A stretch of 36,490 nt of DNA from Bordetella parapertussis (GTDB taxonomy: Bacteria > Bacteroidota > Bacteroidia > Chitinophagales > Chitinophagaceae), in assembly GCA_943331005.2 (NCBI GenBank), contig CALQJX020000031.1:1-36490 (forward strand), given 5' to 3'. Shown piece by piece: positions 1 through 34,497 of this stretch. The position numbers were made by a program, and so were the translations under genes. Position 1 is the first letter of the stretch; each line of letters opens with the position of its first letter. The notes beneath the pieces are model-generated. The model worked only from the letters and a program-made list of their open reading frames with translations. It had not been told where the DNA came from and ran no database searches.

Positions 1-3000
1 GCCATACAGCCTGTTACCGGCAGTACGTAGCTGATGCGGATAACGCCCAGTGATACCGATGTGGCAACGCCTGTTGCTGCATTTATAGTGGCTATCGCAG
101 GGTTGCTGCTTATCCATGAACCACCTGCCATTGCATTGCTGAACGTGTTTGCTGAACCGATACAGATATGCGGGTTGCCGGTGATCGTTGGTGGCGTAAC
201 ATTTACTGTTACCTGTACCCTTGTCAGACAGCCGGTAGCGCTTATTACGTAACTGATATTAGTATGTCCTGCTGCGATACCGGTAACAACACCAGAGAGA
301 TAACCTACTGTTGCTGCTGCTGTGGTATCGCTGATCCATACACCTCCAGGAGTTGGTGTGCTACCCAGTACTATTGTAGATCCTTCACATACCTGAAGCG
401 GGCCTGTGATAGGGGTTGGCAATGCATTTACTGTAAGTGTACGAACATTGAAGCAACCTGTGCTTATTGAGTAAGTGATCACTACAGAACCTGCACTCAC
501 ACCATGTACCATGCCTGTCAGCGGGTCTACTGTTGCACGGGCTGCATTGCTGCTGCTCCATGTGCCGCCTGCTGTAGGGTGGGTGAGTATCGTTGAGTCA
601 TTCACACATACATTACCTGCACCACCAATAACGGCAGGCAGGGTAATTACGGTCACATCGCTCATAGTGCGGCAACCGCTACCTAATGTATAAGTAATAG
701 GAATGATACCTGCAGTTATGCCGCTTACCACACCTGTTATCATATTGATAGTACCATATGGCATAGATGTTGGTGTCTGGCTCCAGGTACCACCTGTTGG
801 AGAACTTGTAAGGTTGGTAGCAAAACCTGCACAAACGCTCAGTGAACCTGAGATTGGCGCCGGATTGTCGTGAACTGTAACCGGAGTTGTAGCCACACAA
901 GCAGTTGGGAGTACATAAGAGATGATGGTATTACCTGCGCTGATGGCAGTGAAAATACCTGTAACACCGTCTATAGTACCTACAGCCGGGTTGCTGCTTA
1001 CCCAGCCACCACCCGGTGTTGGGTTGCTGTATACAGCATTATCACCCACACAAACATCTGTAGGGCCTGAGTTAGGATCTGGCAATGGATTCACAGTTAC
1101 ATTCTCTGTGCGGTAACAACCTGTAGGCAGGGTATATGTTACTACGGTTACGCCAAGCCCCATGAGGCCCGGTGTCATTGCCGACATACCTGTGATGTTG
1201 CCTGTAAGCGCAGTAACTATTGCTACGCTCGGATCGGCTGTACTCCACAGGCCGCCTGTTGATGAAGTAGTAGCGATGATCGCTGAGCCTTCACACACCT
1301 GAAGCGGTGCGCTGATAACACCCGGAAGCGCGTTTACTGTGATCGTCTTCATAGCATTACAGCCTGAACCCAGTGTATAGGTTACTGTAACCACACCTCC
1401 GCTTACTGCTGTCAGCAGACCGCTTGTGGTGTTGATCGTTGCTATTGAAGTATCGCTCGTGCTCCATGTACCACCTGCGGTAGAGTTGCTGTAAGTGGCA
1501 GTATAGCTTTCACACAGCTGGTTAGGGCCTGTTACGCCTACAGGTATCGGGTTCACCGTTACCCCATAAGTTGAAGCACAACCTGTAGAAAGAACATAGG
1601 TAATTGTTGCAGGGCCCAGGTTGTAGCCTGTAACCACACCTGTTGAAGGAACAACATCGGCAATGAAAGGACTACTGCTGCTCCATACACCACCGGAGAT
1701 AACATTACTCAGTGTGCGGCTCTGACCCAGACACATGTCGTGAGGACCGGTGATCGGATATGGTGCCAGTATCAGGAACACACGCTTAGATATGCTACAA
1801 CCTGTAACAGGAGTATAGATCACATCTGCTGTGTCTACTGATATACCGGTAGCAACACCTGTTAATGGATCGATACTAATTATTGAAGTGTCGCTGCTAC
1901 TCCATATACCACCTGCAGGGCTACTCAGGTAAGTTGTAGAGCTCAGGTTACAGAATGCTGCACTACCTGTGATCGGTGATGGCAATGGATGCACTGTTGC
2001 CTGAACGCTCCTGATACATCCTGTAACAGGTAATGTGTAGGATATAAAGGCTGTACCCAATGCTGCACCAGATACAACGCCTGTAGCATCAACCGGTGCA
2101 ACTGCTGTATTGCTGCTACTCCAGGTGCCACCGCTACTTGTTGTTACCAGTGTCTGTGTCCTTCCGATACATACGTTAAGGTTACCAGATATGGCAGCTG
2201 GCTGTGGATTTACTGTAACTACTGTACTTCTGGTACAACCTATACCTATTGTACGAACAATGGTAGCAGTACCTGCTGTAAGACCAGTTACTACACCTGT
2301 AGAAGGATCTACAGAAACCGTAGGGTCAGCGCTTCCCCATGTACCTGTTAGTGGAGTACTACTTACTGTGATAGTTGCATTTTCACAAACCCACATTGGA
2401 GACGGACCTGTAATTACAGAGGGCAATGCATATATAGTTACAACAGCTAAGCTGCTGCAACCCGTTGCCGGAGTGTAACTGATGGTTGTTGTACCGGAAG
2501 TTATACCGGTTACAATTCCTGTTGCAGAAACAGTGCCTACTGCAGTTGTACTGCTGCTCCATGTACCCGATGGTGTTACACATGCAAGTGGTGTGGTCTG
2601 TCCCACACAGGCCTGTAATGTACCTGTTATTGGTGCCGGCACCGGATCTACGGAGATCACTGCTGTAACGCTGCAACCGGTACCTACAGTATAAGTTACT
2701 GTACAGGTACCTGATGCGATACCGGTTATTACTCCTGTTGTTGTATTTATTGTGGCTATCGAAGGGCAGGCACAGTTCCATGTGCCGCCTGGTGTTGCCG
2801 TTGTAAGTGTGCCTGTATTTCCTGCGCAAACCTGCAGCGAACCGGTGATTGATGCAGGCAATGAATATACAGTAACAACCTGCGTTACACGGCAGGTTGT
2901 TGGCAGGGTATAGCTAACTGTGGTAGTACCTGCACTCACACCGCAAAGTGATGTGGTAGCAGAGTTGATAGTTCCTATTGATGGGGTACTGCTGCTCCAT

Positions 3001-6000
3001 GCGCCACCTGCTGTGGTGCTTGCCAGAGCTGCACACTGACCAACACAGGTGGTTGGTGTACCTGTAATGGCTCCAGGCAGCGGATTGATCGTTATTGTTC
3101 TTGTGCTGTAACAGCCTGCACCTGCGGTGTAGGTTACATCTGCAGTGCCTGCAGTGCTGCCCGCCAGTACGATACCGGTAGTAACTCCGATAGTAGCCAG
3201 TGAGCCTGTTATAGACCATGTGCCGCCTGTTGGCGTACAGTTAAGTGTTGTTGTACCTGATGCACATACGTTGGCCGCACCGGTGATGATGCCGGGTAGT
3301 GCATTGATCGTTACGATAGCTGTCTTGCGGCAGCCGGTTGGTAGTGTATATGTTACTGTTGCTGTACCGTTGGTAATACCTGTCACAACACCTGTTGCTG
3401 CTATAACCGAAGCCGAACCTGTGCCTGACGTAATAGACCATGTACCTGTAGCAGGCACGCAGCTCAGTGTGGTGGTCTGACCAACACATACTGAAAGAGC
3501 GCCTGTTATTGCTCCGGGTAATGGGTTCACAGTGATCGGTGAGGATACCAGTGAACAGCCTGATGTTAAAGTATAAGTTACGGTACACGTGCCTGCGGAT
3601 ACGCCACCATAAGTACCTGAACCGGTAGCTATGGTGCCTATACCTGCACATGCTGAACTCCAGGTACCACCTGATGGTGTACCGCTGAGGGTGAGTGTAG
3701 AACCTTCACATACCTGTAGACCTGCACCGCTAGGGGTGATGCCGGTAGGCAGTGCGTTCACCAGAATTATAGTTGTTCTTGCACAGCCCGTTGGCATAGT
3801 GTAAGAAACTGTTGTAGTGCCTGCACTTGTGCCACAGAAAATACCTGTGGTTGCGTTGATAGTACCAACGGCAGCAGAAACGCTGCTCCATGTGCCACCT
3901 GCAGTAGTGCTATTAAGTGTAGTACACTGGCCAACGCAGACGCTGGTAATACCTGTAATTACTGCAGGGAGTCCGTTTACAGTGAATACTGCTGTTCTGC
4001 GGCAACCTGTAGCAAGTGTATAAGAAATGGTTGCAGTGCCGGGTGTGCCGGTAGTTACAACACCTGTACCTATTCCTATTGCGGCAGTGGCAGTGTTGTC
4101 ACTGAACCATGTTCCGCCCGATGGGGTGCTTGTCAATGTTGTAGTAGATCCCTGACAAAGACTTAGCGTACTGCCAATAGTGCCGGGTAAAGCATTTACC
4201 GTTACCACTGCTGTAGTAGTACAACCCGTACCTAATGAATAGGTCATAGTTGCTGTGCCTGATGTTACACCACAGAACAAACCTGTTGCTACATCTATTG
4301 TAGCTACTGCCGGTGTACTGCTTGTCCATGTACCACCCGCTACCGGATTGGTCAAAGTATTGCATGCACCCACACAGGCAGATAGTGTACCGCCTATAGT
4401 ACCTGGTAATGTATTTACAGTTACGTTAAGTGTTGAATAACAACCGGTAGCCCCTATAGTATAAGATATAGTAGCAGTACCTGCTGCTGATCCACAGAAG
4501 AAACCGGGACTAAGCAAAGAACCTACTGTTGGGGTACTGCTGCTCCATGTGCCGCCGGTAGTGGTAACTGTATAAGTGTTACAGTTGCCTACACACATAG
4601 CCAAAGGACCAGAGATCGCAGATGGAGTAGCGTTTACAGTTATTGTAGTTGTTGTATAACAACCTGATGGTAAAGCGTAAGTTATGATTGCTGTACCTGT
4701 ACTTACACCAAACACATCGCCGGTACCTGATATAGTTGCAACTGTTACGTCAGAACTGCTCCAGCCACCACCAAGGGTAGTACTTGAAAGGGTTATTGTC
4801 TGACCCGCACAAACTGCAGAAGGGCCGGTTATTGGCGATGGCGCCAGATCAACAGTTACTGTAGCAGTAGTGATGCAAGATGTTGGCGCCGTATAAGTAA
4901 TAACTGAAGTTCCACCGGTAAGTGCGGTCCACAATCCTGTAGCTGCATCTATAGATGCTACGGTACCCGTTCCTGAAGACCAGGTGCCGGCAGCAGTGGC
5001 ACTGCTAAGTGTTGCAGTTGCACCCTGGCAAAGAGCCAGTGTGCCTGTTATTGCAGAAGGAAGCGGATTGACTGTAATTACTGCAGTAGCAATACAACCA
5101 CTTGGTAAGGTATAAGTAACAACACAGGTGCCTGCACCTACTGCGGTTACAAGACCAGTGCCAAGATCTACAGTAGCTACTGTAGGACAAGCCATGCTCC
5201 ATGTTCCGCTAGGTATGCCATGTGTTAGTGTATTTGTTTGGCCTATACACAGTGGAATGTTACCAACGATTGCTGTAGGTGTAGGTGTAACAGTAATTAC
5301 TGTTGATGTGCTACAACCTGCGCTGAGTGAGTAAGTAACAGTACAAGTACCTGCATTAATACCAGTTACCACACCTGTTGTAGGATTTACTGAAGCTATA
5401 GTAGGACAAGCCATACTCCATGTGCCACCTGTTGACGGGTTTGTCAGCGTGATCGTAGATCCCGCACAAACCGAAGTAGGTCCAACAATTGGTGTTGCTG
5501 CAGAAACTACGGTCATAGTTTTTGTTGCTGCACAACCGGCTACTGTATATTTAATAGTAACAGTACCGGGGTTAACACCGGCCACTATACCTGTTACCGC
5601 ACCTACAGTAGCAATTGTTACAAGCGTACTACTCCATATACCACCTGTAGAAGTGCTGGCAAGTGGTGTGGTAGCGCCCACACATACTGTGCCTGCACCT
5701 GTAATTGCAGAGGGGAAAGGATTGACCGATATGGTTTTGGTAGTAAAGCAACCTCCACCCATATTATATGTAACTATGCAGGTGCCTACCGCAATACCGG
5801 TTACTACACCTGTAGATGAGCCTACAGAAGCTATTGTCGGACAGGCACATACCCAGCTGCCACCCGGAACTGAGTTTGCTAGAGTAATAGAAGTGCCGAC
5901 ACAAACTGTAGAAAGGCCTGTAATAGTTGCAGGTGTTGTAGTGACAGTAACGGTCGTCAATGCCAGACAGCCTAGCACTGTGTAAGACATGGTTACGGTT

Positions 6001-6160
6001 CCCGGCGCAACGCCTGTTACAAGACCGGTAGTAGAACCTATGGTGGCAATAGCAGGAGAGCTACTTGTCCACACACCGCCTGTGGTGGCATTGGCAAGTG
6101 TTGTAGTAAAACCTGTACAGACAAATAAGCTGCCGGTAATAGGGGTTGATAAAGCAAAAA
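1..6160 (-). repeat. About 28 tandem coding repeats of about 220 bp (Ig-like domains)
   Basis: The conserved Trp of the GGTWSSS motif appears on the plus strand as a cca triplet, preceded by ctgctgct in many copies. It recurs near 115, 333, 557, 780, 1000, 1240, 1463 and so on to about 6070. That gives 28 occurrences with a mean spacing near 220 bp (73-74 codons). The copies are clearly homologous but strongly diverged at DNA level, so the array is old rather than freshly amplified. One unit near 1140-1260 is longer than the rest. Many open frames on the plus strand in this region are periodic antisense shadows of the array. Confidence 0.9.
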
Positions 6161-7691
6161 TGGTAACGGTAACAGGGATGCGCACACTTGGGCACCCTGC
6201 AACTACCTGCGATACATAATATGTTGTTGTGCCCACTGTGGATGTTGACGGGGTAGGGGCAGTAGTGCTGCCTACACCACCTGTTGGTGTGGTCCACCAG
6301 TATATGGTGCCTATACCAGAAGCAGTGAGTGCCGGAGCAGTAGACCCCAAACAATAGGACAGGGGTGTTGTAGTTGTTGGTGGCGGAGTAGAACCCGGAG
6401 GCATAACAGTGAGCAGGAATGTTTTTCCTGAACAACCCGAAACACCTGTAGTACCTGTAATAGTATAAGTGATAGGTGCTGTGATAGAACTAACAGATAT
6501 AGTATTGGTAAGACCTGTAGTAGTAGCAAGATAAGTTGATGGCGCCCATGTCCATGTGCTGCCAAACCAGTCTGCTGTAGAACCGTTAATGATGCTACAT
6601 GCCAGAGAGCTACCTGTGAAAGAGCAAGATGTAACGGTATCTGTAGTATCTCTTGCTATGCCGTTTACAACCAATTGAGGATTGGCCATTGCGCTATCGA
6701 TACCGGTAAGACCATTGAAGATGTAGCTATAGTTAATTTCTGTACTATCGCCTGCAGCAATGTTGCCAAGGTTGTATATGAGACCAATAGCAACATCAGA
6801 TGTAATTGTTCCGCTGAATGAATAACCTCCCGCACCAGAGGCATAAAGTGTAGCAAGGTTTGTAGCAGTAGAACTTGGCCAGCCTGAGTGTATGAAACAT
6901 TTGGCACGGCAGTCTTTTGTAGCAAGAGAAAGTGTTTGTGATGTGTAGAAAGTACCGGTACCGGTAACCATTACGCGGTGGTAATAATCGTTCTGGTGAT
7001 TGATGGTATTTGTTGTGGTGAAAGGACCGCCCGCCATCACATCATTATCCGGATCTGTTTCTCTCAGATAATACACACCAACCAATGTAGTAGCCCCTGT
7101 GTTTTTGAATTTCACATTCATTTTTACCCAAGAGGCATTTGTATCAAGCGTAGTGGTCTGTGTGATCTGTAAAGCACCACCAGATGCAGTTCCCTGCCAT
7201 ACACCTATAGTTTTACCAGAAGGATTGAGATAAGCAGTAGTGCTGCCGGTGAGGCCTGCAGCACCTGCAAATCCGGTAGCACCTGATGCTGTATAGTATT
7301 GCATTTGTGCTTCACTATGTGCGCCATTTATCTGAATACCCCATCCTTCATATGGAGTACCTGGCATGGAGTAATCGCCAAAGAATGCTGGTGTGCCGGT
7401 AGTAAAACCGTCATGACCGGCATCATACACCATCATCAACCTTTGGTTGGATGCACCTGTGAAAGCTGCCAGTCCGGGATCCCAAAAGTTGAATGTAGGA
7501 GAACTACAATGATATACACCAGTAGGAGGCAGTCTGGTAGACCCCAAAGAGCCATTGGGGGCTACTCCTACTTCAACCCATTTTCCCTTAAGGAAAATCT
7601 GGTCACCTACCATCTGAGCCTTTGAAGAATGACTGATAGTAAGTGCAATGAAAGCAAGAAAAACGATAAAACGAGTAGATAGTTGTTTCAT
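1..7691 (-). CDS. Giant secreted Ig-repeat surface protein (5' part; C-terminus outside window)
   Basis: The frame is open from the ATG at 7691 to the left edge, at least 2563 codons. Tryptophan codons sampled at 558, 2559 and 4326 all lie in the same frame. The N-terminus (MKQLSTRFIVFLAFIALTI, then SKAQ) is a clear signal peptide. Residues about 27-440 form a head domain I cannot name. Residues about 445-510 match the CHU_C-associated Ig-like type (YWWTTPTGG, TTYYVSQ). From about residue 515 onward there are about 28 Ig-like repeats resembling bacterial Ig group 2. Their core is VCVG near the start, GGTWSSS, IATV, TGVVTG, GTxTVTYT, and GC before TVTVNPLP. Proteins of this build are usually exported by the T9SS and act as cell-surface adhesins or gliding-type proteins. 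The sorting domain would lie beyond position 1, so export route and function are inferred. A terminator of the upstream pit operon separates it from that operon. Confidence 0.88.
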   Translation of the reverse strand, partial: MKQLSTRFIVFLAFIALTISHSSKAQMVGDQIFLKGKWVEVGVAPNGSLGSTRLPPTGVYHCSSPTFNFWDPGLAAFTGASNQRLMMVYDAGHDGFTTGTPAFFGDYSMPGTPYEGWGIQINGAHSEAQMQYYTASGATGFAGAAGLTGSTTAYLNPSGKTIGVWQGTASGGALQITQTTTLDTNASWVKMNVKFKNTGATTLVGVYYLRETDPDNDVMAGGPFTTTNTINHQNDYYHRVMVTGTGTFYTSQTLSLATKDCRAKCFIHSGWPSSTATNLATLYASGAGGYSFSGTITSDVAIGLIYNLGNIAAGDSTEINYSYIFNGLTGIDSAMANPQLVVNGIARDTTDTVTSCSFTGSSLACSIINGSTADWFGSTWTWAPSTYLATTTGLTNTISVSSITAPITYTITGTTGVSGCSGKTFLLTVMPPGSTPPPTTTTPLSYCLGSTAPALTASGIGTIYWWTTPTGGVGSTTAPTPSTSTVGTTTYYVSQVVAGCPSVRIPVTVTIFALSTPITGSLFVCTGFTTTLANATTGGVWTSSSPAIATIGSTTGLVTGVAPGTVTMSYTVLGCLALTTVTVTTTPATITGLSTVCVGTSITLANSVPGGSWVCACPTIASVGSSTGVVTGIAVGTCIVTYNMGGGCFTTKTISVNPFPSAITGAGTVCVGATTPLASTSTGGIWSSTLVTIATVGAVTGIVAGVNPGTVTIKYTVAGCAATKTMTVVSAATPIVGPTSVCAGSTITLTNPSTGGTWSMACPTIASVNPTTGVVTGINAGTCTVTYSLSAGCSTSTVITVTPTPTAIVGNIPLCIGQTNTLTHGIPSGTWSMACPTVATVDLGTGLVTAVGAGTCVVTYTLPSGCIATAVITVNPLPSAITGTLALCQGATATLSSATAAGTWSSGTGTVASIDAATGLWTALTGGTSVITYTAPTSCITTATVTVDLAPSPITGPSAVCAGQTITLSSTTLGGGWSSSDVTVATISGTGDVFGVSTGTAIITYALPSGCYTTTTITVNATPSAISGPLAMCVGNCNTYTVTTTGGTWSSSTPTVGSLLSPGFFCGSAAGTATISYTIGATGCYSTLNVTVNTLPGTIGGTLSACVGACNTLTNPVAGGTWTSSTPAVATIDVATGLFCGVTSGTATMTYSLGTGCTTTAVVTVNALPGTIGSTLSLCQGSTTTLTSTPSGGTWFSDNTATAAIGIGTGVVTTGTPGTATISYTLATGCRRTAVFTVNGLPAVITGITSVCVGQCTTLNSTTAGGTWSSVSAAVGTINATTGIFCGTSAGTTTVSYTMPTGCARTTIILVNALPTGITPSGAGLQVCEGSTLTLSGTPSGGTWSSACAGIGTIATGSGTYGGVSAGTCTVTYTLTSGCSLVSSPITVNPLPGAITGALSVCVGQTTTLSCVPATGTWSITSGTGSASVIAATGVVTGITNGTATVTYTLPTGCRKTAIVTINALPGIITGAANVCASGTTTLNCTPTGGTWSITGSLATIGVTTGIVLAGSTAGTADVTYTAGAGCYSTRTITINPLPGAITGTPTTCVGQCAALASTTAGGAWSSSTPSIGTINSATTSLCGVSAGTTTVSYTLPTTCRVTQVVTVYSLPASITGSLQVCAGNTGTLTTATPGGTWNCACPSIATINTTTGVITGIASGTCTVTYTVGTGCSVTAVISVDPVPAPITGTLQACVGQTTPLACVTPSGTWSSSTTAVGTVSATGIVTGITSGTTTISYTPATGCSSLAVVTIYALPSVITGPSPMWVCENATITVSSTPLTGTWGSADPTVSVDPSTGVVTGLTAGTATIVRTIGIGCTRSTVVTVNPQPAAISGNLNVCIGRTQTLVTTSSGGTWSSSNTAVAPVDATGVVSGAALGTAFISYTLPVTGCIRSVQATVHPLPSPITGSAAFCNLSSTTYLSSPAGGIWSSSDTSIISIDPLTGVATGISVDTADVIYTPVTGCSISKRVFLILAPYPITGPHDMCLGQSRTLSNVISGGVWSSSSPFIADVVPSTGVVTGYNLGPATITYVLSTGCASTYGVTVNPIPVGVTGPNQLCESYTATYSNSTAGGTWSTSDTSIATINTTSGLLTAVSGGVVTVTYTLGSGCNAMKTITVNALPGVISAPLQVCEGSAIIATTSSTGGLWSTADPSVAIVTALTGNITGMSAMTPGLMGLGVTVVTYTLPTGCYRTENVTVNPLPDPNSGPTDVCVGDNAVYSNPTPGGGWVSSNPAVGTIDGVTGIFTAISAGNTIISYVLPTACVATTPVTVHDNPAPISGSLSVCAGFATNLTSSPTGGTWSQTPTSMPYGTINMITGVVSGITAGIIPITYTLGSGCRTMSDVTVITLPAVIGGAGNVCVNDSTILTHPTAGGTWSSSNAARATVDPLTGMVHGVSAGSVVITYSISTGCFNVRTLTVNALPTPITGPLQVCEGSTIVLGSTPTPGGVWISDTTAAATVGYLSGVVTGIAAGHTNISYVISATGCLTRVQVTVNVTPPTITGNPHICIGSANTFSNAMAGGSWISSNPAIATINAATGVATSVSLGVIRISYVLPVTGCM

Positions 7692-28626: not shown

Positions 28627-29955
28627 TCAATTCTTCATCACCTTATTCACGTATAGCTTATCACCACTCCGCACATATACCAGGTAGATGCCGGAAGGAA
28701 AACCCGAAAGGTCTACTTCAGTACTTCCGCTCGTTATGGTTTGAGAGAGAACGGCCACACCTCCAATATTGTAAATAGTAAGCAACGATATGCCGGCCGG
28801 TACATGCACCGAAAACACACCTGTAGTAGGATTGGGAAACAACTTCGCCTCAACACCTTTGTCTACATCGGTTACAGCGACACCGCTACTTACTTTGCGT
28901 ATTCTATGATTTACATAGTCAGTAATATAAATATTGCCATTGTCATCTGTACATACGTTCGTACATTTTAGTTTAGCGTTGGTGGCAGGACCTCCATCTC
29001 CTCCATATCCTACATTCCCGCCTGCTTCTGTCGTAATTACATTAGTGATTGCGCTAACTTTTCTTATGGCACCGTTGCGATAGTCGGCAATAAATAAGTT
29101 GTTGTGCTTATCAACAAATATTCCGGTGGGCTCATTTAGTTGTGCATTTGCTGCGGGGCCGTTATCTCCCGAATAGCCTACTACACCTGTTCCTACTATA
29201 GTCGTAATCTTGTTAGTGGAAACACTGATTTTTCTTATCACACCATTCCAGGAATCAGAAATAAAAATGTTTCCTGCATCATCAAGATCGACATCTATAA
29301 CTCCATTAAATTGGGCAATCGTGGGATCTCCCCCGTTGCCAGAATATCCCACTACACCTGTTCCTGCTACAGTTGAAATAATTCCAGTCGTTAGATTGAT
29401 CTTCCGGAGTTTGTGGTTTAAGCAATCAGATACATATAAGTACTCATTTCTTACACGCAGTCCTCCCGGACCATTTAACTGTGCACCAGTAGCAGCACTT
29501 CCATCGCCACTCGTTCCCACCGTACCATTTCCTGCAATAGTGATGATTGTACCAGTAGTAGATATTTTACGTATTCTATAATTTCCTCCATCAGCTATAT
29601 AGATATTGCCCGCAGCATCTATGCATATACCTTCTGGAATAAATAGTTGAGCACTAGTCGCATCACCACCATCGCCAAAATATCCCGGACTGCCGGTTCC
29701 TGCTATAGTTGTTATAATACCTGTTGACAAGTTTATCTTTCGTACTACATGATTAGAGCCATCGCAAAAAAGGAGATTATTGTCTAAATCCATGCAAATT
29801 GAGTAAGGATCATTCAATTTAGCGTTTGTTGCAGGCCCACCATCACCACTGTAGCCTGCGGAGTCCTTCCCTGCAATGGTTGTAATAATATTCACCTGTG
29901 CATGCGTAAAAATGCAGGCGTAGGTGAATATTATTGTTAAAACATATCTTGTCAT
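28627..29955 (-). CDS. Secreted NHL-propeller protein with T9SS sorting domain (copy 1)
   Basis: A 442-residue exported protein. The signal peptide (MTRYVLTIIFTYACIFTHAQ) is followed by six NHL-type units of about 55 residues, with GYSGDGGPATNAKL, then GIxxDxxGNIYIAD, then RIRKIS, and TTIAGTG. They should fold as a six-bladed beta-propeller. A type A T9SS sorting domain closes the protein (KLFPNPTTGVFSVHVPAG, then GIYLVYVRSGDKLYVNKVMKN), directing it across the outer membrane, usually to the cell surface. Its ATG overlaps the stop of an orphan sorting-domain fragment as ATGA. It is a paralogue of the gene at 30251-31588. Ligand unknown. Confidence 0.9.
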   Translation of the reverse strand: MTRYVLTIIFTYACIFTHAQVNIITTIAGKDSAGYSGDGGPATNAKLNDPYSICMDLDNNLLFCDGSNHVVRKINLSTGIITTIAGTGSPGYFGDGGDATSAQLFIPEGICIDAAGNIYIADGGNYRIRKISTTGTIITIAGNGTVGTSGDGSAATGAQLNGPGGLRVRNEYLYVSDCLNHKLRKINLTTGIISTVAGTGVVGYSGNGGDPTIAQFNGVIDVDLDDAGNIFISDSWNGVIRKISVSTNKITTIVGTGVVGYSGDNGPAANAQLNEPTGIFVDKHNNLFIADYRNGAIRKVSAITNVITTEAGGNVGYGGDGGPATNAKLKCTNVCTDDNGNIYITDYVNHRIRKVSSGVAVTDVDKGVEAKLFPNPTTGVFSVHVPAGISLLTIYNIGGVAVLSQTITSGSTEVDLSGFPSGIYLVYVRSGDKLYVNKVMKN

Positions 29956-30250: not shown

Positions 30251-31588
30251 TCAATTCTTCTGCACCTTATTCACATAAAGCTTATCACCACTCCGCACAT
30301 ATACCAGGTAGATGCCGGAAGGAAAACCCGAAAGGTCTACTTCAGCTGTTCCGGTAGTAATAGTTTGTGATAGAACGGCCACTCCTCCAATATTGTAAAT
30401 AGTAAGCAACGAAATACCAGCTGGCACCTGCACCGAAAACACACCTGTAGTAGGATTGGGAAACAACTTCGCCTCAACAGCTTTATCTATATCTGTTACA
30501 GCCACACCGCTACTCACTTTTCTTATTCTGTTATTCTCATAATCTGCTATAATCAGGTTTCCATAACTATCTACACATATACCCGTTGGAAACAACTTAG
30601 CGTTTGTGGCTGGGCCTCCATCTCCTGCAAAACCTGTTACTCCTATACCTGCAATTGTGGAAATTATACCTGTGCTTACTGATATTTTCCTTACTGAACC
30701 ATTCTGATAATCAGCAACGAATATATTATTTCCTACGTCTACATATATCCCTGATTGCTGATTAAATGTTGCGTGTATTGCTGACCCACCGTCACCAGCA
30801 AACCCATTAGCGCCAGTGCCTGCTATTGTACTTATAACACCTGAAGCAACTGCGACTTTTCTTAAAACACTATTTAACTTATCAGATATGATCATGTCTC
30901 CTGTATTGTTTACATAGACATCAATCACCCCATTTAATTTGGCAGAGAGTGCATCTCCTCCGTCACCTGAATAACCTGCAATACCACTGCCAGCAACAGT
31001 TGAGATTAAGCCGTTTGAATTATTTACCCTACGTACCTTATTATTCGTATAATCAACGATATACAGATTTCCTTGTTTGTCTAAATTTATCCCAACTATG
31101 CCGTCCAATTCTGCATTAACACCTAAACCACCATCGCCATTTTGGCCTTGAATTCCTTTTCCAGCAACCGTGGTAATAATCCCCGTAGCAATATCAATTT
31201 TTCTAACTCTGTAATTGAGTGCATCACCTATGTAAATATTCCCATTAGTATCCAATGCCAAACCTTGAGGTATAAACAACTGAGCAGTTGTAGCTGCAAT
31301 TCCATCTCCATTATATCCACCAATACCATTGCCGGCAATGGTTGTAATTACTCCTGAAGAAAGATCAATTTTCCTAATTCTGTGATTTAGCGCGTCAGAG
31401 AAATATATACTTTCACTTTTTCGACAACATATTCTATAAGGTGCTTTCAATTTTGCATTTGTTGCCAAGCCACCGTCTCCACTATATCCAGTTGAGTCCT
31501 TTCCTGCAATGGTTGTAATAATATTCACCTGTGCCTGCGTTTTAAAGCAAGCACAAGCGAATATCATTATTAGGGTAAACCTTATCAT
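30251..31588 (-). CDS. Secreted NHL-propeller protein with T9SS sorting domain (copy 2)
   Basis: A 445-residue paralogue of the protein at 28627-29955. It has the signal peptide MIRFTLIMIFACACFKTQAQ, six NHL units with the same GYSGDGG and IYIxD motifs, and a type A sorting domain (LFPNPTTGVFSVQVPAG, then GIYLVYVRSGDKLYVNKVQKN). The first 30 mature residues and the last 85 residues are almost identical to copy 1 and the DNA is nearly so, whereas the propeller blades differ widely. This points to tandem duplication with later divergence or gene conversion at the ends. Its ATG overlaps the stop of a second orphan sorting-domain tail. Confidence 0.9.
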   Translation of the reverse strand: MIRFTLIMIFACACFKTQAQVNIITTIAGKDSTGYSGDGGLATNAKLKAPYRICCRKSESIYFSDALNHRIRKIDLSSGVITTIAGNGIGGYNGDGIAATTAQLFIPQGLALDTNGNIYIGDALNYRVRKIDIATGIITTVAGKGIQGQNGDGGLGVNAELDGIVGINLDKQGNLYIVDYTNNKVRRVNNSNGLISTVAGSGIAGYSGDGGDALSAKLNGVIDVYVNNTGDMIISDKLNSVLRKVAVASGVISTIAGTGANGFAGDGGSAIHATFNQQSGIYVDVGNNIFVADYQNGSVRKISVSTGIISTIAGIGVTGFAGDGGPATNAKLFPTGICVDSYGNLIIADYENNRIRKVSSGVAVTDIDKAVEAKLFPNPTTGVFSVQVPAGISLLTIYNIGGVAVLSQTITTGTAEVDLSGFPSGIYLVYVRSGDKLYVNKVQKN

Positions 31589-34172: not shown

Positions 34173-34319
34173 GAAGGTGAGAGCGGAAAGGTGAGAGCGG
34201 GAAAGAGAGCGAAGAGCGGTGTTTTGAATTCGTCTGAATCAAAGATCAAACTGATTATTGGATTTCACGATTGGTGAGAGGATGTGTTTTGAAGACCCCT
34301 CCCTGAAGGGTGACATGGG
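34173..34319. repeat. Purine-rich plus GAATTCGTCTGAATC repeat, copy 2
   Basis: Starts just past the dtd stop: GGTGAGAGCGG units, then TTTTGAATTCGTCTGAATC (34222), then an extra tail AAGACCCCTCCCTGAAGGG that is absent from copy 1. It is tandem with copy 3 at a 135-base period. Confidence 0.85.
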
Positions 34320-34497
34320 TTGAAAGGTGAGAGCGGAAAGAGAGCGGAGAGCGGTGTTTTGAATTCGTCTGAATCACAGATTAAACTGATTATTGGATTT
34401 CACGGATGGTGAGAAGATGTGTTTTGAAGACCCCTCCCTGAAGGGTGACATGGGCTGAAAGGTGAGAGCGGGAAAGAGAAAGAGAGCGGGAAAGATT
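34320..34497. repeat. Purine-rich plus GAATTCGTCTGAATC repeat, copy 3 and partial copy 4
   Basis: Copy 3 repeats the unit, including the CCCTCCCTGAAGGGTGACA tail. From 34456 a fourth purine tract (GGTGAGAGCGGGAAAGAG and on) begins but lacks the GAATTC part. Confidence 0.85.

Follow-up and report, generated by a model that had tools for sequence, protein, structure and literature searches.

Probable disulfide staples between neighboring repeats, and optional within-sheet cysteine pairs, in a giant bacterial immunoglobulin-like array

We have examined a 36,490-nucleotide stretch of DNA, referred to here as the window (positions 1 to 36,490 of contig CALQJX020000031.1, assembly GCA_943331005.2, named Bordetella parapertussis and placed by GTDB in the Chitinophagaceae), one edge of which lies within a gene for a giant protein made of tandem immunoglobulin (Ig)-like repeats. 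Each repeat carries two core cysteines, C13 and C64 in a 73-column repeat numbering, that are most likely not paired with each other within one repeat. Instead, the pattern in which they are lost across the protein family indicates that C13 of one repeat is probably bonded to C64 of the next, which would place a disulfide staple at every junction of the array. Single repeats would add one optional disulfide of their own, either 17-47 or 19-45 (strands B and E), 33-54 or, rarely, 32-55 (strands C and F). Taken as a whole, we consider this reading to be highly probable. The protein and its array are as follows.

3..7691, minus strand: open reading frame (ORF) of the giant secreted Ig-array protein, 2563 amino acids in the window, extending past the window start and truncated at its C-terminal end by the window edge; matches to PF25354 and Big_2
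3..6155, minus strand: 28 tandem Ig-like (Big_2-type) repeats, R01 to R28, of about 73 amino acids each; R28 is incomplete

The repeats belong to the Ig-like beta-sandwich fold class. PF25354 matches 20 stretches of the ORF at 244.6 bits (curated cut-off 27), and Big_2 (PF02368) matches 14 stretches at 167.6 bits (curated cut-off 22.8). An alignment of all 28 repeats, with a table of its cysteine columns, places cysteine at both C13 and C64 in 28 of the 28, and the two core cysteines per repeat described in the initial annotation are therefore present throughout. Two further alignments are narrower in scope, one (A1) holding 25 window triples and 89 of 105 locus triples, the other (A2) holding 21 of the 28 repeats, with R17 and R23 to R28 omitted and R11 trimmed to 73 residues.

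The wider family was sampled in three sets. Set 1 comprises the window protein and the best 120 of 3,411 matches (121 proteins; 4,612 unique repeats). Set 2 comprises 35 new proteins among the best 120 of 2,315 matches, together with 15 loci (1,695 new repeats), and played no part in naming the optional pairs; set 3 comprises the best 120 of 519 matches, which are shorter proteins and include many fragments (715 repeats), and played no part in the test that prompted the junction idea. Repeats with more than 8 gaps in the 73 columns were dropped, followed by duplicates, which took set 1 from 4,771 to 4,707 and then 4,612 repeats, set 2 from 1,799 to 1,751 and then 1,695, and set 3 from 838 to 717 and then 715, for 7,022 unique repeats. 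The junction tests use unfiltered rows from contiguous repeats (gap below 12 residues) that have letters at both columns, and the loci were tested separately from the 156 proteins.

We conclude that every junction is probably stapled because C13 of one repeat and C64 of the following repeat are lost together. When loss of C64 at repeat i is scored against loss of C13 at repeat i-1 (a cysteine at column 62 being scored as C64), the 156 proteins yield 5815 junctions at which both are kept, 1 and 1 at which they are discordant and 61 at which both are lost, such that co-loss is seen at 61 of 63 loss junctions. The corresponding counts within the same repeat are 6057, 56, 34 and 41 (co-loss in 41 of 131). 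Most of these same-repeat co-losses come from one protein, P0002, without which the counts become 5805, 1, 1 and 23 across the junction (23 of 25 loss junctions), 6043, 55, 34 and 3 within the repeat (3 of 92) and 5757, 52, 31 and 2 for the opposite orientation. In repeats 16 to 55 of P0002, near-identical repeats alternate that lack both C13 and C64, and repeat 16 lacks C13 only; a run that starts with loss of C13 alone is what the junction rule predicts. This run is, as judged from its cysteines, a natural staple-free array.

The same pattern is found outside the proteins in which it was first noticed. Across junctions, set 3 gives counts of 575, 0, 3 and 14 (co-loss at 14 of 17) and the loci give 309, 0, 1 and 2, against same-repeat counts of 697, 33, 34 and 2 and of 333, 4, 4 and 0, respectively. 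The 23 matched loss junctions fall into 13 clusters at 60% identity, and a junction tree (all 25 lossy junctions plus 1,500 sampled of 5,830) holds 11 and 12 changes. In an analysis of coevolution between 5,587 neighboring pairs of repeats, 13(i)-64(i+1) ranks first of 5,314 column pairs. Among pairs that keep both cysteines it ranks fourth, behind 22-22, 14(i)-2(i+1) and 16(i)-65(i+1), with the opposite orientation in 14th place; we discarded the 22-22 coupling as a sign of a bond, as it is explained by neighbors that share D, N or S. The ends of the arrays also follow the junction rule in the 156 proteins, where C13 is present in the last repeat in 130 of 144 cases when a cysteine follows within 100 amino acids, as compared with 2 of 11 when none does (p 3e-7), and C64 is present in the first repeat in 132 of 136 cases when a cysteine lies upstream, as compared with 12 of 17 when none does (p 9e-4). 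Of the 27 such junctions between R01 and R28, three representative staples, each predicted from loss pattern and coevolution, are given here.

4221..4595, minus strand: candidate staple from C13 of R08 (codon 4593-4595) to C64 of R09 (codon 4221-4223)
3555..3938, minus strand: candidate staple from C13 of R11 (codon 3936-3938) to C64 of R12 (codon 3555-3557), linking repeats of the C17+C47 and C33+C54 classes
2457..2828, minus strand: candidate staple from C13 of R16 (codon 2826-2828) to C64 of R17 (codon 2457-2459)

The initial annotation had implied a different arrangement, in which C13 and C64 form the ordinary internal disulfide of an Ig domain and the extra cysteines, as further internal disulfides, give the stalk a patterned stiffness. 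It is true that the extra pairs exist and occupy neighboring strands, that C13 and C64 are near-invariant, that the same-repeat 13-64 coupling ranks 10 within repeats and that the two are co-lost in the same repeat in 41 of 131 cases when P0002 is counted. Nevertheless, with P0002 set aside there are 3 same-repeat co-losses against 55 and 34 discordant repeats, as compared with 23 against 1 and 1 at the junction, and given these loss tables we no longer take the rank-10 coupling as proof of an internal bond. An AlphaFold2 model of R11 to R13 (predicted local distance difference test score 96.6, predicted template modeling score 0.81) has strands at columns 11-13, 17-19, 28-31, 37-39, 45-48, 52-59 and 65-73 of its first repeat. 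Within the domain, C13 has column 72 as a coupled position, and C64 has columns 3 and 60; columns 64 and 72 sit at opposite ends of the 65-73 strand. Both cysteines also show coupling to columns that are nearly invariant, including 27, 29 and 58. Judged by loss pattern rather than by structure, the repeats most likely lack the classical intradomain Ig disulfide. As the extra pairs also lie off the shortest covalent path, we think it very unlikely that internal bonds between C13 and C64, with stiffness patterned by the extras, account for these data.

We next consider the optional pairs that would be added to this stapled chain. Nine repeats of the window carry one, and they are exactly the nine that the initial annotation had named.

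5778..5843, minus strand: R02, C33+C54, Cys codons 5841-5843 and 5778-5780, Trp codon 5853-5855; plus C31 at 5847-5849
5343..5408, minus strand: R04, C33+C54, Cys codons 5406-5408 and 5343-5345, Trp codon 5418-5420
5124..5189, minus strand: R05, C33+C54, Cys codons 5187-5189 and 5124-5126, Trp codon 5199-5201
3585..3650, minus strand: R12, C33+C54, Cys codons 3648-3650 and 3585-3587, Trp codon 3660-3662
2703..2768, minus strand: R16, C33+C54, Cys codons 2766-2768 and 2703-2705, Trp codon 2778-2780; plus C31 at 2772-2774
4494..4583, minus strand: R08, C17+C47, Cys codons 4581-4583 and 4494-4496, Trp codon 4545-4547
4272..4364, minus strand: R09, C17+C47, Cys codons 4362-4364 and 4272-4274, Trp codon 4326-4328
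3834..3926, minus strand: R11, C17+C47, Cys codons 3924-3926 and 3834-3836, Trp codon 3888-3890
2943..3035, minus strand: R15, C17+C47, Cys codons 3033-3035 and 2943-2945, Trp codon 2997-2999

None of the 28 repeats has half of either pair. If repeats were independent, the chance of such exact matching would be 1 in 98,280 for 33/54 and 1 in 20,475 for 17/47; because the repeats of the window are related, we give more weight to tests in the family. Across the 7,022 repeats, C17 occurs in 59, C47 in 57 and both in 57, with the other 2 C17 repeats having C43; C19 occurs in 54, C45 in 53 and both in 53, with the odd one having C44; and C33 occurs in 25, C54 in 51 and both in 25. In set 1 the respective counts are 36, 36 and 36 for 17/47, 34, 33 and 33 for 19/45, and 15, 34 and 15 for 33/54. 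Set 2 gives 23, 21 and 21 (both C17 exceptions having C43), 20, 20 and 20, and 9, 12 and 9, and set 3 has one 33-54 repeat and none with 17-47 or 19-45. The proposal that neither partner appears without the other thus holds in the window and, shifted partners apart (2 of 59 and 1 of 54), for 17/47 and 19/45 in the family; it fails for C54, to which we return below. That one fold accepts alternative extra disulfides also finds support, but the alternatives are more than the two first proposed: 19-45 is found in the family and in no repeat of the window, 32-55 occurs in three repeats, and 21-43, 27-58, 57-67 and 53-71 occur once each. The 17-47, 19-45 and 33-54 classes never overlap within one repeat.

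We regard it as well supported that the optional pairs are within-sheet disulfides, because they sit on ladders that also emerge from coevolution in repeats devoid of extra cysteines. In 4,372 such repeats, 19-45 ranks 15, 33-54 ranks 64 and 17-47 ranks 102 of 2,415 column pairs, and two antiparallel ladders, with i+j = 64 and i+j = 87, carry the pairs. There are 142 repeats that keep both C13 and C64 and have just two extra cysteines, and in 127 of them the extras fall on the two ladders. There are 17 kinds of double-cysteine repeat, 16 of them rankable (25-26 being too close), and 7 of the 16 rank within the first 150 coevolving pairs, as compared with 1.3 expected on reshuffled partners, while nine are not. 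Strands 17-19, 45-48 and 52-59 of the model agree with the pairs, and column 33 lies just past strand 28-31. On a tree of the 4,612 set 1 repeats, built without the extra-cysteine columns, columns 17 and 47 change 19 times each and columns 19 and 44/45 change 16 times each; every contrast across a supported branch is concordant, the contrasts numbering 8 for 17/47, 4 for 19 paired with 44/45 and 5 for 33 paired with 54. At 60% identity the pairs span 14 (17-47), 4 (19-45) and 13 (33-54) clusters, and in six orthologous proteins both partners are gained or lost jointly at the positions compared, except in two C54-only repeats of P0103.

It is possible that the columns travel together purely through duplication or gene conversion of whole repeats, with no disulfide constraint at all, and there is evidence of such copying. 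R12 to R15 of the window are 93-100% identical to the paralogue P0034, as compared with 45-74% for R01 to R11, and relative to P0003 the differences per 73 sites number 25-29 in R16 to R18, 1 in R14 and 5 in R15. Gene conversion between giant paralogues probably made this R12 to R18 mosaic, and repeats are probably swapped in blocks that carry optional pairs as units. Within-class identity in the window is also slightly raised (0.457 and 0.480 as compared with an average of 0.409; p 0.034 and 0.009). However, class members in the window are just 32-54% identical, the pairs span many clusters and change repeatedly on the tree, repeats without extra cysteines yield the same contacts, more double-cysteine kinds are among the top coevolving pairs than expected, and partners change jointly between orthologs. 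Block exchange could in part take the place of selection, yet it leaves the junction rule and the coevolution in repeats without extra cysteines unexplained, and copying in the absence of any disulfide constraint seems to us highly improbable. We note that the 12 repeats of the window with extra cysteines use a mixture of TGT and TGC codons.

In addition to the pairs, some repeats carry a solitary extra cysteine, of which C22 is the commonest in the family (172 of 7,022 repeats; the sole extra in 141). In the window the initial annotation had missed C22 in R13, R14 and R17, as well as the C31 of R02 and R16 listed above.

3459-3461, 3237-3239 and 2580-2582, minus strand: solitary C22 codons of R13, R14 and R17, respectively, positions from the alignment

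C22 occurs and coevolves with Ser at column 66, which is near C64, and with Pro at column 24. We found no enrichment in neighboring repeats that would suggest that a solitary C22, C31 or C54 pairs between domains, other than a C22 followed by a C31 two repeats on (4 cases as compared with 0.76 expected, in one of many comparisons). C13 is absent from 12 of 171 C22 repeats and from 100 of 6,834 others, and C64 is absent from 8 of 171 and from 137 of 6,834, respectively. We considered C22 as a stand-in partner for C64 and set this idea aside, as a lineage effect is possible and several of the C22 repeats without C13 looked, by eye, to be the last in their array.

The solitary cysteines bear on the suggestion that the cysteine pairs are kept because they bind metal or serve redox chemistry, and not because they form structural disulfides. 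C22, C31 and C54 indicate that an unpaired cysteine is tolerated, and both the coevolution of C22 with S66 and P24 and the enrichment of Asp or Asn with some of the pairs (D22 with 19-45, D36 with 17-47) are points in its favor. Yet columns 17, 47, 19 and 45 have cysteine only when the partner is also cysteine (three partners being shifted), and His is absent from the enriched residues, up to nine of which were shown per class. We give this suggestion hardly any credence, and structural disulfides remain our preferred account of the pairs.

If the staples form, the C13(i)-C64(i+1) disulfides would make overlapping loops that chain the stalk together bead to bead, and the chain would restrict the lengthening of the stalk when its domains unfold. 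The lengths assumed are 0.36 nm for each residue, 0.56 nm for each disulfide and about 4 nm for a folded domain. On these values, the longest covalent path that connects C13 of R01 with C64 of R28 comes arithmetically to 733 nm with no bonds, 232 nm with intradomain C13-C64 bonds and 111 nm with staples, the last being about 4 nm for each of about 28 repeats. An Ig domain is usually close to 4 nm long. Adding the nine optional pairs to the stapled chain leaves the path unchanged at 111.2 nm. Because the stapled path is about the folded length and is unchanged by the extras, the chain is expected to set a ceiling on extension; the optional pairs, which would lie off the load path, should act locally on the stability of their own domains. 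Local stabilization of the fold is thus a better guess for the role of the extra pairs than the patterned stiffness initially proposed. Neither are the pairs in the middle of the array, as had been suggested: all nine repeats that carry them lie in R02 to R16 of 28, on the N-terminal side (Mann-Whitney p = 0.018), and their mean relative array positions in the family, which are inflated by related proteins, are 0.27 (33-54), 0.20 (19-45) and 0.51 (17-47), such that as a class they are not central there either.

The optional pairs might instead tune mechanics only when the staples are reduced or absent, in a redox-dependent manner comparable to that of the cysteine triad of titin, for which there is experimental precedent (PMC5766482). 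In keeping with this, the nine extra pairs of the window would shorten an unfolded stalk without staples from 733 to 658 nm. Outside P0002, however, only 3 repeats lack both core cysteines. A secreted protein is also expected to be oxidized, and we consider such redox-dependent tuning unlikely.

Several observations count against the stapled stalk and its within-sheet pairs as we read them. In addition to the rank-10 coupling within repeats, mismatched junctions occur (two in P0083, three in set 3 and one of three in the loci), and staple contrasts on supported branches are concordant in 3 of 3 cases when C13 is the starting point and in 3 of 5 when C64 is, without significance in either. The 64-64, 13-13 and opposite 64(i)-13(i+1) couplings rank 2, 6 and 7 between repeats; near-invariant columns and the long run in P0002 may underlie these competing couplings and the rank-10 one. 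In set 3, which has many fragments, C13 is present in 77 of 87 last repeats that have a downstream cysteine and in 21 of 30 that have none, a weak trend, and C64 is present in 33 of 39 first repeats that have an upstream cysteine and in 62 of 73 that have none, which is no trend. With respect to the pairs, C54 lacks C33 in 26 of 51 C54 repeats, column 33 follows in an average of 4.3 of 8 contrasts when starting from 54, and the contrasts for 19/45 (4), for 33/54 (5) and from 54 (8) are too few for significance. Further, the set 2 query, P0079, itself bears 17-47 and 19-45 pairs, p-values from raw counts are inflated because repeats are related and exchanged by gene conversion, and the lengths used above are assumed. 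It is because the set 3 ends are weak and the supported tree contrasts are few that we hold our confidence in the whole reading at highly probable and no higher.

Individual elements of this architecture have precedents, which we describe from the portions of the cited sources available to us. Myelin-associated glycoprotein (MAG) has an interdomain disulfide between Ig1 and Ig2 (C37-C165) that is among its authors' reasons for limited flexibility, and an AlphaFold model of Siglec-6 has one between the V-set and C2 domains (PMC10122656). As in these proteins, the bonds we propose would join neighboring Ig domains, a likeness drawn from sequence with no homology claimed; unlike them, the bond would be present at every junction of a 28-repeat bacterial Big_2-type array and not once. 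Titin is likewise a long tandem Ig array with variable cysteines in part of its domains, and in its I-band particular cysteine combinations in some Ig domains alter extensibility (PMC5766482). Titin is a muscle protein, however, in which the cysteines cluster on strands B, F and G of one domain, whereas here the pairs lie on the B-E and C-F ladders and constant bonds would run between domains. A giant adhesin of Mobiluncus mulieris has 51 Ig-like domains and several kinds of covalent cross-link, including a within-sheet disulfide that joins adjacent strands 2 and 5 (PMC10619420); its repeated cross-links are mainly intradomain ester or isopeptide bonds, and the portion available describes no interdomain disulfide chain. 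As background only, disulfides are reported to join parts of the gliding machinery and type IX secretion system (T9SS) in Bacteroidota (PMC12635249).

Structural comparison with Foldseek matched the repeats to fragments of GhpA, the grappling-hook protein of Aureispira, which is also a giant protein (six fragments listed, TMq 0.42-0.48, 20-25% identity); Aureispira is a member of the Bacteroidota. Neither the profile search of solved structures nor the other sequence search returned a match to GhpA. The profile search did match Ig domains of NUP210, phage proteins and intimin, which we did not use further, and the solved Big_2-CBM56 structure (PDB 7r3t, 7quz) is a fragment and not a long array. 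Among the matches listed in open-license literature, no title or abstract opening describes a bacterial Ig array with disulfides at all of its junctions. Single interdomain Ig disulfides, the variable cysteines of titin and mixed adhesin cross-links are thus already known, and the chain proposed here through every junction of a bacterial array appears, within the literature listed, to be new. We lean slightly towards a broader view, in which thousands of giant surface proteins of Bacteroidota would be inextensible covalent tethers that stay at about their folded length even if all domains unfold, and whose repeats sample many alternative within-sheet disulfides. If this is so, a repeat family that is very common (3,411 protein matches in one search) builds covalently chained stalks, unlike the beads-on-a-string view of such proteins, and the alternative disulfides provide a natural record of the cross-links that one Ig fold accepts. 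Counting cysteines per repeat can mislead, as the partner may sit in a neighboring repeat.

Lastly, we consider the setting of the gene. P0003, the closest relative among the matches listed (3023 amino acids; 90% identical over the searched region), has PKD_3 followed by a Por_Secre_tail sorting domain C-terminal to its array, and the window copy ends before that region. By eye, the N-terminus of the ORF is hydrophobic. The array is probably the stalk of a giant surface protein exported by the T9SS, although its surface location and any adhesive function are inferred. The 15 relatives in genome contigs come from Taibaiella, Flavipsychrobacter and other Chitinophagaceae or Bacteroidetes. Cysteines also precede R01, at ORF residues 356, 365, 420, 447 and 500 (residues 356-500 correspond to approximately 6192-6626, minus strand), and these could extend the staple chain into the domains before R01. 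ORFs neighboring 3..7691 look, when read by eye, housekeeping-like. Elsewhere in the window, two adjacent minus-strand ORFs at 28627-29955 and 30251-31588 (442 and 445 amino acids) are similar by eye, with repeated motifs and C-terminal ends that almost match, and a tandem repeat at 34186-34479 has 2.2 copies of a 135-base unit with 94% matches.

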